From: Candidatus Treponema equi
Lineage (GTDB): Bacteria > Spirochaetota > Spirochaetia > Treponematales > Treponemataceae
Direction: 5' to 3'
Assembly (NCBI GenBank): GCA_018064785.1
Contig: JAGHUO010000032.1
Span: 1-39,446 of the forward strand
DNA length: 39,446 nucleotides
This document shows positions 26,067-30,341 of the stretch, piece after piece. Each line of letters opens with the position of its first letter. Position 1 is the stretch's first letter. A model generated the notes under the pieces. That model searched no databases and had not been told where the DNA came from. It saw nothing but the letters and a program-made list of their open reading frames with translations. Position numbers and translations under genes: made by a program.

Positions 26067-26095
26067 TTGAATTTTTCCTCTTTTTCTTGTATATT
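26067..26095 (+). promoter_or_regulatory. Promoter of the mcsA-mcsB-clpC operon
   Basis: TTGAAT (26067-26072), a 17-bp spacer and TATATT (26090-26095) stand 27 nt before the ATG at 26123, leaving a leader of about 20 nt with a normal ribosome-binding site (GAGGGG). I see no CtsR heptad repeat and no CIRCE element around it. Confidence 0.6.
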
Positions 26096-26122: not shown

Positions 26123-26659
26123 ATGATTTGTGACTTTTGCCACGAAAGAGAAGCAGCTATCTTTATGGAACAGATGACCGGTATAGGTCAGCGCCGTAAA
26201 ATCAACATATGCCTGGAATGTGCCATGGAAAGGGGAATCTCGCCTGATCCAAAGAACATAGAATCTTCAATAGGCAATCTTTTCAAGGAGCTTGCCGACG
26301 TCTCAAAGAAAATATCAGACAGAGAAAACAAGGTCTGCCCAGTCTGCGGAACTAAACTCGGCGATATAAGAAAGACCGGACATACTGGCTGTCCTGAATG
26401 CTATGCCATTTTCAAGAATGACATCCGACAGCTTCTGGAAAACAACGGAGTCAAGGAAGTCTTCAAGGGAACCATGCCGGCACGTCTTTCAACAATACAT
26501 TCCGTCCTCAACGACAGGGTGATACTTCAGAATAAACTTAATGATGCCCTTGAGCGTGAGGATTATGAAAAGGCCGCCATGTACCGCGACTATCTCAAGG
26601 CTCTTGAAAAGCAGTCCGTTTCCGATGGTTCCGATGTGGAACAGGGAGAGGCTGACTGA
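26123..26659 (+). CDS. mcsA: McsA-like zinc-finger protein with UVR motif
   Basis: In Bacillus McsA activates the arginine kinase McsB and helps it deliver substrates to ClpC. The start is ATG 26123 with GAGGGG 6 nt upstream; the TTG at 26087 in the ORF track lies in the promoter. The 178-aa protein has four CxxC pairs, CDFC, CLEC, CPVC and CPEC, forming two zinc fingers. Its C-terminal UVR motif is LNDALEREDYEKAAMYRDYL. All metal ligands are intact. Its stop overlaps the mcsB start by 1 nt (TGATG). Confidence 0.9.
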   Translation: MICDFCHEREAAIFMEQMTGIGQRRKINICLECAMERGISPDPKNIESSIGNLFKELADVSKKISDRENKVCPVCGTKLGDIRKTGHTGCPECYAIFKNDIRQLLENNGVKEVFKGTMPARLSTIHSVLNDRVILQNKLNDALEREDYEKAAMYRDYLKALEKQSVSDGSDVEQGEAD

Positions 26660-27771
26660 TGGCAAAGAAAAACAATTCCTCTGTGACCGACACCTGGTAT
26701 TCCGTGAAGGGCAGGGAACAGGATGTGGTTGTATCCACAATGTCTACGTTAAGACGCAACCTTGCAAACTTTCCTTTTCCGTCACAGCTTCGTGAACCTG
26801 AAAGTGAAAGAATACAATCCATAATGTTCGATGCCTTCAACTATCTTCCTGATGCGGAATTCTACCAGGCGGTTCCTCTTGAAAAACTTGATGACACAGG
26901 CCGCAAAGTCATGTATGAACGCTGCGTAGTCGAGGACAGCGAAGTAAAGAAAGGTGGACTCATCCTGCGCAATGACGGAAGGATCAGCTGTACTGTGAAC
27001 ACCGGTGACCATGTCGTAGTTTCATCCTTTGCTTCCGGTTTTGCTCCAGATATTACGACTAAAACAGTCTACGAGGTGGACTGCGAGCTACAGAAGCACG
27101 TGCAGTTTGCCGCCAGCTATGATTTTGGATACCTGACCAATTTTGTCATGAACTCAGGAAGCGGACTTTGTATTTCTGCGGTCCTCCATCTTCCGGCTCT
27201 CTCTCTTCTTCATGAAGTAGGCGGAATTGCCGAGCGCCTTTCAAAGGATGGATTTGTCCTTAGTGAAAGATATGGTTCAGGTGGATATGAGAATGTCAGT
27301 GGCTATGGCAGTTATGGTTCCGCACTTGGTACCTATTACAGGCTTTCGACAAAAAGCAGCGCAGGCGGAACTGAACTGGAACAGCTTGCTTCCATGCAGA
27401 TCGTGTTGAAGGATGTGATCAACGAAGAGCGTGAGGCAAGAAAGAAATGCCGCACAAACCATGTCACGGAAATAGCCAACTACACCTACAGATCACTTGC
27501 CCTTGCAAAATCAAGTTTCTTTATAAACTTGAGGGAATCTGTCGATATTATAAGTGGCGTCAAATTCGGCGCCGACATGGGTATTCTGAGCGGAATCGAT
27601 GACACTGAACTCCATGCCCTTCTTTACAGGGTGCAGGAAGGTCATCTTGAATATGTTCTCAATACGGGTAAATTCAAGTTTGAAAAGGACATCCAGGAAA
27701 ACAAGCACAAGCAGATTGAAAGGCTGAGGGCGCTTATTCTTCAGGAATCCTTTGAGAATATTGAGAAATAA
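26659..27771 (+). CDS. mcsB: McsB-like phosphagen-kinase-fold protein, probable pseudokinase
   Basis: A 370-aa protein of the McsB length and fold; landmarks still align, such as RRNLANFPFP, GYLTN and VLHLPALSLLHEVGGIAERL. Compared with Bacillus McsB from memory, the catalytic positions are changed. SSRIRLARN is STMSTLRRN (two ATP-binding Arg lost, M28 and T30). NEEDHLR is NTGDHVV (both Glu and the Arg lost, 115-120). The Cys of TSCPTN is F162. The Arg of GTGMRAS is C171. RGIYGEGSEA is replaced by a longer Gly/Tyr/Ser-rich loop, and the C-terminal RDxxRA phosphoarginine site is not recognisable. Kinase activity is therefore unlikely. Its place between mcsA and clpC suggests a retained adaptor role. 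GGGAGAGG precedes the start. Confidence 0.88.
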   Translation: MAKKNNSSVTDTWYSVKGREQDVVVSTMSTLRRNLANFPFPSQLREPESERIQSIMFDAFNYLPDAEFYQAVPLEKLDDTGRKVMYERCVVEDSEVKKGGLILRNDGRISCTVNTGDHVVVSSFASGFAPDITTKTVYEVDCELQKHVQFAASYDFGYLTNFVMNSGSGLCISAVLHLPALSLLHEVGGIAERLSKDGFVLSERYGSGGYENVSGYGSYGSALGTYYRLSTKSSAGGTELEQLASMQIVLKDVINEEREARKKCRTNHVTEIANYTYRSLALAKSSFFINLRESVDIISGVKFGADMGILSGIDDTELHALLYRVQEGHLEYVLNTGKFKFEKDIQENKHKQIERLRALILQESFENIEK

Positions 27772-27785
27772 AAATCGGGTGGGTT

Positions 27786-30341
27786 ATGTACGATAATTTT
27801 TCACCAAGAGCACGCAGACTTCTTGTTGCTCTTGCACAGGATGAGGCTTACTATTCCGGAAGCAAGGTCATTGATCCGGAACATATCATTCTTGCTCTTT
27901 TGAAATCAGCAGACGGTCTCGGCTACATTGCGCTTCAGAATCTGAGGATCAATGTGCTTACGATGCAGCTTGCCATTGAACAGAATTTCCATAGCAGATA
28001 TCCAGATGCGGAACTCAAGACAATCCCTAATTCGGAACGCACGGAAAAATTCCTTAACCAGTGTTCTTTTATCGCAAAGGCCATGGGCAACAATTATGTT
28101 GGAACTGAGCATATGGTTCTTGCGGCCATTACGGAAGAACATTCACTTTTGTGGACTTATTTCCGCAAAGCCGGAATTTCCGTTGACCAGGTAAAGAAGA
28201 CGGTTTCCGAAATACAGAAAAAAATCCCTTCTTCGGCAGCAAACTCAGAAGATGATGCCGATGGCGGAAATTTCATAAATGAGAAAGCCGTTCCATTCAT
28301 GGCTGACGGAAGTTCACAGCAGAAAAAACAGAAGCCACAGAGCATTCTGGAACAGTTTTCCCGTGACCTTACTCAGGCTGCCCGTGACGGTCTTCTTGAT
28401 CCTGTCGTAGGCCGGGAAAAGGAAGTGCTCCGTACGGTGCAGATTCTGAGCCGTCGTTCAAAAAACAATCCTGTACTCATTGGTGAACCTGGCGTTGGAA
28501 AGACAGCCATTGTAGAAGGTCTTGCCCAGAGAATCGAAAAAGGCACTGTACCTGTAGATCTCCTTAACAAGCGTGTTCTTCAGCTTGATCTTGCTGCCAT
28601 GATTGCCGGTACAAAGTATCGCGGTGAATTCGAGGAAAGACTCAAGCGTGTCATGAAGGAAATCAAGGAAGCAAAGAATGTCATCCTTTTCATCGATGAA
28701 CTTCATACAATAATTGGTGCCGGTGGACCGGAAGGAAGCATGGATGCAGGAAACATGATAAAGCCTGCCCTGAGCCGTGCCGAGCTCCAGATCATTGGAG
28801 CCACAACAACAAAGGAATACAGAAAATATTTTGAGAAGGACAGCGCCCTTGTACGTCGTTTCCAGACAGTACGCGTTGAAGAACCTTCTGAAAATGAAAC
28901 AGAGCAGATCCTTCTTGGACTTAAATCAAACTACGAGGAGTATCACCATGTAAGATATGATGATGATGTAATTCCTCTCATTGTCAAATATTCAAAACGT
29001 TACATCAATGAAAGGTTCCTGCCGGACAAGGCAATCGACATTCTTGATGAAGCCGGTGCCGCAAAGAAGATCACAGAAAACTCACGTCCTGACGGGCTTG
29101 AACAGCTTGAACTTGAATATGCAAAGGCAAACGAACAGAAGCGTGAACTTGTAGCAGCTCAGGAATACGAGAAGGCCGCATGGATGCGTGACAAGATGAA
29201 CAGCCTTAAGCTTGAGATCGATGAGCTTAACCGCAAGTGGAAGTCTGCTGATGCAGGACGCAACCGTTGCGTAAGCGCAGAGGATGTATGCCGCATCATT
29301 TCTTCAATGACAGGAATTGATGTCTCAAAGCTTGATGACGGAAAATCTTCAAGGCTCCTTAATATGGAACGTGAAATTCATCGCGAGGTCATTGGCCAGA
29401 ATGAAGCCGTAAGCCTCATAAGCAGCGCAGTACGTAGAAACAGGGCTGGTGTCTCTTCTGGACGCAGACCTATGGGATCCTTCATTTTCCTTGGACCAAC
29501 AGGTGTTGGAAAAACACAGCTGGCAAAGAGTCTTGCGAAATTCCTCTTTGGAACCGAGGATGCCCTTATCCGTGTTGATATGAGTGATTATATGGAAAAG
29601 CAGAATGCTTCCCGCCTTGTAGGTGCACCTCCTGGATATGTTGGATATGAGGAAGGCGGAATGCTTACAGAACAGGTCAGACAGCATCCTTATTCCGTTG
29701 TGCTCCTTGATGAGATCGAGAAGGCCCATCATGACATCTTCAATCTTCTTCTTCAGATGCTTGAAGAAGGCGAACTTAAGGACAATCTTGGACATACGGT
29801 TTCTTTCCGTAACTGTCTTGTGATCATGACAAGCAATGCTGGCGCAAGGGAAATCACAGCCGACAGCCGCATGGGATTTTCTACGGTCAAGGAAGGCGTG
29901 CTTCCTTATGAGGACATCAAGGCAAGCGCCATGGAAGAACTTAAGCGCATCATGTCTCCAGAACTCCTCAACCGTGTGGATGATGTTGTCGTATTCAACG
30001 CCCTTTCTCATGAAGAAGTGGACAATATCCTCAACATTCAGCTTGATGAGCTCAAGTCAAGGATTGCGGAAAAAGGAATCTCTCTTGATGTGAAACCAAA
30101 GGCCCGCCAGTGGCTGGTTGAAAACGGATATAAACCTTCCATGGGTGCCCGTCCTATGAGGCGCCTCATCCAGCGTCAGATTGAAGATCCTCTTTCTGTC
30201 CTTCTCCTTGAGAATTCAGAGTTTGCCGATGAGACAAAACCAAAGACCGTTGTCCTTGATTTTGACGGAGAAAAACTCACCCTCAAGATGAAGAAGGCCA
30301 GGGTAAGGGTAGTCAACCAGAACGAAGAGCTTCTTGTCTGA
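27786..30341 (+). CDS. clpC: ClpC-type AAA+ unfoldase
   Basis: An 851-aa Hsp100 protein that feeds substrates to ClpP. The N-terminal double repeat (1-~145) includes [10 protein letters not shown] and [11 protein letters not shown], which keep Glu32 and Glu109, the positions that contact phosphoarginine in Bacillus ClpC. AAA1 has GEPGVGKT and [12 protein letters not shown]. The middle domain carries a UVR-type stretch ([19 protein letters not shown]), a ClpC hallmark. AAA2 has [28 protein letters not shown] and the sensor segment [14 protein letters not shown] likely ClpP-binding loop is RMGF. GGGTGGG precedes the ATG. It is the last gene of the mcsA-mcsB-clpC operon, and no ctsR gene is present. 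Confidence 0.95.

Follow-up and report, generated by a model that had tools for sequence, protein, structure and literature searches.

The mcsB gene of the window (the whole stretch of DNA analysed here, 39,446 nucleotides of a Candidatus Treponema equi contig) encodes a member of the McsB family in which none of the eight key catalytic residues is kept, and the loss of its kinase activity is strongly supported by the sequence. The protein is probably a McsB-family member without arginine kinase activity that functions as a structural partner in a McsA-McsB-ClpC module and, as we infer, as a phosphorylation-free adaptor of ClpC. The gene lies in the following locus.

26123 to 26659, plus strand: mcsA (NCBIfam NF053706, E 4.6e-23; UVR, E 1.3e-6; McsA of PDB 8wtb_B, E 3e-18)
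26659 to 27771, plus strand: mcsB homologue, 370 aa, predicted to be kinase-dead (a pseudo-arginine-kinase) from the ORF, profiles, alignment and model
27786 to 30341, plus strand: clpC, 851 aa (Clp_N domain and two AAA modules)

The mcsB ORF starts with ATG and has no internal stops; it overlaps mcsA by one base, the last of mcsA and the first of mcsB, and is followed by clpC 14 nt downstream. The likely start of mcsA is the ATG at 26123, the listed ORF beginning with the TTG at 26087, and its product contains two CxxC zinc-finger pairs (four CxxC) and a UVR motif. The first-pass annotation of this DNA had described an intact frame coupled to intact mcsA and clpC, which agrees with the open ORF and the mcsA-mcsB-clpC operon found here.

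McsB homology spans the whole ORF and covers both the phosphotransferase and the dimerisation domains (NCBIfam NF002194, E 3.5e-51, residues 12-346; Geobacillus McsB, PDB 6fh1, E 8.7e-32, residues 9-345; Foldseek), with a further match to Pfam PF00217 (ATP:guanido phosphotransferase; E 2.4e-23), and the protein scores far below the curated NCBIfam equivalog cut-offs (174.3 bits vs 385, and 156.8 vs 500). An AlphaFold2 model built with 90 relatives as input has a mean pLDDT of 93.3, and its top matches among solved structures in Foldseek are the McsB structures 6fh1, 6fh3 and 6tv6 (TM 0.82-0.84, the best being 6fh1 at 0.84). Taken together, the profile matches, the model and the structure matches point to the McsB fold. 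No second, intact McsB was found by profile search in the genome from which the window comes (71% complete).

The catalytic site was read at eight positions, R29, R31, E121, R125, C167, R176, R207 and E212 (B. subtilis McsB numbering, from the PDB chain), which in the window protein are M, T, G, V, F, C, S and S, respectively. The affected motifs, the lid and the phosphoarginine pocket map as follows.

26734 to 26757, plus strand: STMSTLRR, remnant of the SSRIRLAR nucleotide-binding motif (R29 to M28, R31 to T30), by alignment
26998 to 27018, plus strand: NTGDHVV, remnant of NEEDHIR (substrate Glu121 to Gly116, ATP Arg125 to Val120), by alignment
27142 to 27171, plus strand: FVMNSGSGLC, remnant of CPTNVGTGLR (Cys167 to Phe162, Arg176 to Cys171), by alignment
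27271 to 27333, plus strand: enlarged Gly/Ser/Tyr-rich lid YGSGGYENVSGYGSYGSALGT, aa 205-225, in place of the GEGSEA lid, by alignment and model
27715 to 27732, plus strand: I353-E-R-L-R357-A358, half-retained counterpart of the RDxxRA phosphoarginine pocket, by alignment

The two remaining changes are R207 to S202 and E212 to S207, the latter within the lid. What is kept comprises R34 (R33 in the window protein), N119 (N114), D122 (D117), H123 (H118), the GYLT core and GSG. The first-pass annotation had inferred the loss of the phosphagen-kinase site from the changes of SSRIR to STMST, of NEEDHLR to NTGDHVV, of the TSC Cys to F162 and of the GLRAS Arg to C171 and from the replacement of the GEGSEA loop by a Gly/Tyr-rich one, and the alignment with Bacillus, Geobacillus and spirochaete McsB bears out the loss and each of these changes. 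Its statement that the RDxxRA pocket is not recognisable holds in part: R337 is gone, but alignment via a canonical spirochaete McsB (L062) reveals the counterpart I353-E354-x-x-R357-A358, in which D338 is replaced by Glu and R341-A342 are kept, R357 being present in 90 of the 92 genus sequences. The roles of E121 and E212 are presumably those of Glu225 and Glu314 of Limulus arginine kinase, with which they align. In B. subtilis, the replacements R29K, R31K, R34K, R125K, R176K, R207K and R337K each abolished the kinase signal, and the C167S variant has no kinase activity (PMC7235348). Chance or misalignment is ruled out by the agreement between the fold, the PDB alignments and a MAFFT alignment that includes every relative collected, and an assembly artefact by the occurrence of a like state in other genomes at 59-76% identity, including relatives that are 76% and 72% identical.

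To place the window protein, McsB sequences sampled at each rank from genus up to phylum (with family, order and class in between) were aligned together with two Bacillota references; the sampling demanded a Pfam match and thus favoured less divergent sequences. None of the 125 sampled McsB of the class Spirochaetia combines E121 with C167 (0/92 in the genus, 0/11 and 0/5 in other genera of the family, 0/7 in the order and 0/10 in the rest of the class). Among McsB from the phylum's other classes, both residues are present in 23 of 38, a set enriched in strong matches that does not provide an estimate of frequency, and one spirochaete McsB (L062, from genome G230) has all eight residues. In a tree built without the eight catalytic columns, the 70 rows of the family form a supported group (99) with zero catalytic members, and the catalytic state changed at least six times overall, on what is a quick tree with an unsure deep order. 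The loss of the substrate residues is common to the sampled class and not peculiar to the window gene; the window's subclade stands apart in having also lost ATP-binding arginines and in its enlarged Gly-rich lid. The close relatives L028 and L032 share with the window protein the loss of R29, R31 and R125.

Several further members of the set deserve mention. The McsB of L118 and L129, which belong to a large genus of another class, are without the catalytic set and have a shortened lid, which suggests that the kinase site was lost independently there. In the order-level relatives L002, L012 and L013, McsB sits in a much longer open frame than is usual (461-589 aa), which may reflect an N-terminal extension or merely an upstream stretch that is open. 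Among the 160 listed genus genomes with a PF00217 match, only one (G091) has two.

In the genus at large, residues of the nucleotide site outlast those of the substrate site: R29 and R31 are each kept in 73 of 92 sequences and R125 in 63 of 92, and position 176 is Lys in 72 of 92. This pattern is compatible with a nucleotide-responsive pseudokinase that transfers no phosphate, in which most genus members would bind ATP or ADP via the kept arginines as a conformational switch and the window's subclade, being derived, would have lost the switch too. The concentration of nucleotide-arginine loss in the long-lid forms fits such a scheme as well: at least one of R29, R31 and R125 is lost in 23 of 25 long-lid genus sequences vs 4 of 67 short-lid ones. 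However, a nucleotide switch is inapplicable to the window protein itself, which is missing R29, R31, R125, R176 and R207, and R176K alone abolishes the activity of the B. subtilis enzyme (PMC7235348), so that we consider this explanation unlikely.

The lid has 25 residues between its anchors in the window protein, compared with 16-17 usually in the genus and 14 in B. subtilis; its Gly-rich character is conserved inside the window's subclade, and aa 211-220 form a low-confidence part of the model (mean pLDDT 66). The association of lid enlargement with nucleotide-arginine loss is suggestive only: a test of lid length against nucleotide-site loss yielded a single independent pair, and with so few pairs and one or two origins of the long lid, the association holds at the level of clades.

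The part of the protein predicted to face McsA shows the opposite trend to the catalytic site.

27091 to 27138, plus strand: McsA-docking helix end and loop QKHVQFAASYDFGYLT, aa 145-160, conserved in the genus

In S. aureus, McsB residues Y147-Y153 dock the second zinc finger of McsA (PMC12467219), and this segment aligns with aa 152-158 of the window protein. E121 and C167, which are invariant in 24 active-like McsB, have entropy ranks of 0.96 and 0.86 in the genus (1 being the most variable), whereas the McsA-docking stretch (B. subtilis 150-165) moves from rank 86 in the active-like set to rank 8 in the genus, of 314 sixteen-residue windows, which places it among the most constrained parts of the genus McsB; Q145, Q149 and A151 are identical in all 92 genus sequences. 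On the McsA side, zinc finger 2, which does the docking, can be recognised in 90 of the 92 genus partners, also where finger 1 is lost. At the activating position of finger 2 (B. subtilis R96), 21 of 22 partners of active-like McsB have a basic residue, compared with 46 of 90 genus partners; the window McsA has His. The retention of finger 2 combined with the less frequent basic residue is consistent with docking being kept and activation being relaxed. Only two CxxC are present in McsA of L007, L014, L018 to L021, L024, L030, L132, L149, L151, L152, L168 and L169; these members have lost the first finger and kept the McsB-docking one, and most of them fall within one supported McsB clade.

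Strong constraint on the docking loop would also be expected of a McsB that has no adaptor role towards ClpC and serves only to stabilise or accompany McsA, for example in redox sensing, or to restrain ClpC, and in B. subtilis McsB is inhibited by ClpC and McsA is redox sensitive (PMC5506225). Against this stands the strict linkage of mcsB to clpC besides mcsA: in the genus, mcsA is the neighbour of mcsB in all 89 loci that have room for it, and clpC adjoins mcsB in 83 of 84 loci with a match. Furthermore, the redox switch is known to act on CtsR, and CtsR was not found in 59 relatives including the window's genome (of the controls, only Lactococcus was positive), and we regard a role confined to McsA or to restraining ClpC as quite improbable.

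MecA likewise was not found in the 59 relatives, with the B. subtilis control positive. The B. subtilis control genome was negative for PF00217 and CtsR even though the species has both genes; it seems to lack the ctsR-mcsA-mcsB-clpC region, and negatives there need care. Of the low-molecular-weight phosphatases, 12 were read in the genus, and each carries CHGNICRS (the Tyr type), with Ile where YwlE has Thr; Thr11 is, we assume, the arginine-selectivity residue of YwlE. A single residue decides the selectivity of these phosphatases (PMC5506225). No YwlE-type (CTGNTCRSP) phosphatase was found in the window's genome (71% complete, sole match CHGNICRST) or in 11 relatives, and the only CTGNTCRSP phosphatase seen comes from G230, the genome that also encodes the fully canonical McsB. 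The window's genome further encodes two ClpP paralogues (G000:C87:1742-2281 and G000:C53:1649-2170).

The favoured reading is that of a phosphorylation-free adaptor, which the first-pass annotation had also raised. The window protein folds like McsB, as the model and the structure matches show, and would probably dimerise. It is predicted neither to bind nor to phosphorylate arginine and, in the window's subclade, probably not to bind the ATP phosphates, judging by the loss of residues essential in B. subtilis. McsA would be bound via the retained loop for its second zinc finger, as suggested by conservation, and McsA-McsB would then dock on the N-terminal domain of ClpC, free ClpC from its resting state and hand over clients untagged. 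The models for this last step are MecA and B. subtilis McsB C167S, a kinase-dead variant that is still partly functional in MgsR turnover; its authors interpret this as adaptor activity independent of the kinase (PMC7235348). Within the subclade, the emptied active-site cleft under the enlarged flexible Gly-rich lid may, speculatively, touch clients or ClpC.

Two observations weigh against the adaptor reading. B. subtilis McsB reportedly needs kinase activity to stimulate ClpC (PMC5506225), so that the spirochaetes would have had to rewire this step. The window ClpC keeps Glu32 and Glu108, the acids of the two N-domain phosphoarginine pockets, as do nearly all genus members. Such retention is what continued reading of phosphoarginine would predict, although adaptors and the resting state make use of these sites as well. 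Adaptor binding to the ClpC N domain activates ClpC, and given that adaptors use the same sites (PMC12583610), retention of the pocket Glu residues does not decide between the models. A more sweeping version of the adaptor reading, in which phosphorylation-free McsA-McsB-ClpC quality control would extend across Spirochaetia with McsB as a pure adaptor, and the dead site and new lid of the subclade would form a client- or ClpC-binding surface, is possible but doubtful.

Catalytic residues of pseudoenzymes are sometimes retained or migrate, which also weighs against the adaptor reading, and the site could in principle belong to a changed enzyme, either rebuilt for another reaction or still phosphorylating arginine with migrated residues. 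A new acid at position 170 (Asp in 73 of 92 genus sequences) lies near K176, the Gly-rich lid is conserved in the subclade and the phosphoarginine pocket is half kept. The window protein, however, has N165 and C171 in place of D170 and K176, no new polar set appears in the aligned pocket motifs, and positions 121 and 167 tolerate many different residues across the genus, all of which makes a changed enzyme very improbable.

The pairwise dN/dS ratios of mcsB are mostly in the range of 0.02 to 0.15 and resemble those of mcsA and clpC (close pairs; in pairs containing the window itself, dS is near saturation), the L034/L134 pair of the window's subclade giving about 0.07 and one very close pair with few changes 0.29. 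The first-pass annotation had argued against recent decay, and these values, well below 1 and near those of the neighbours, rule it out. The idea that the gene is decaying and will be lost, for which the stepwise loss of key residues and the missing PF00217 match in 11 of 84 high-quality genus genomes might speak, is scarcely credible and already contradicted by these ratios, by the open frames of the listed genus mcsB matches (with one exception), by the conserved operon and by the confident fold. With the catalytic motif absent and purifying selection acting on the gene, the window McsB is a predicted pseudoenzyme of the McsB family.

In the open-access literature, we found no paper dealing with the McsB of spirochaetes, nor any describing a catalytically inactive McsB family or a phosphagen-kinase pseudoenzyme. 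McsB is known for producing the phosphoarginine tag that marks bacterial proteins, such as damaged ones in Bacillus, for degradation. Whether it has an adaptor role independent of the kinase as well is described as difficult to dissect in B. subtilis, where one protein does both (PMC5506225); a class that keeps mcsA-mcsB-clpC without the kinase site would be a natural separation of the two roles. For these spirochaetes, it would be a mistake to annotate the gene as "arginine kinase" on the basis of PF00217 or to infer arginine phosphorylation because mcsB is present.

Compared with the McsB of B. subtilis, G. stearothermophilus and S. aureus (6tv6, 6fh1, 8gqd), the window protein shares full-length homology, the two-domain fold, the McsA-docking loop and the mcsA-mcsB-clpC operon; it differs in being without the eight catalytic residues and R337 and in its enlarged lid, as well as in its setting, in which CtsR was not found in the window's genome and 58 relatives and no YwlE-type phosphatase was present among the genus ones read. 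It resembles the B. subtilis C167S laboratory mutant (PMC7235348) in that kinase inactivity is expected and an adaptor function is proposed to persist, but the spirochaete state is natural, fixed across the class and accompanied by many further changes. The proposed binding to the ClpC N domain, ClpC activation and delivery of clients without phosphorylation would be MecA-like, although McsB is from an unrelated family and MecA was not found in the relatives searched. The catalytic-domain fold is that of the animal arginine and creatine kinases (phosphagen kinases; Foldseek TM about 0.55), from which the window protein differs by the absence of the Glu, Cys and Arg set and by its McsB C-terminal dimerisation domain. 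Finally, as in pseudokinases and pseudoenzymes generally, the motif is lost while the fold and the selection are kept.
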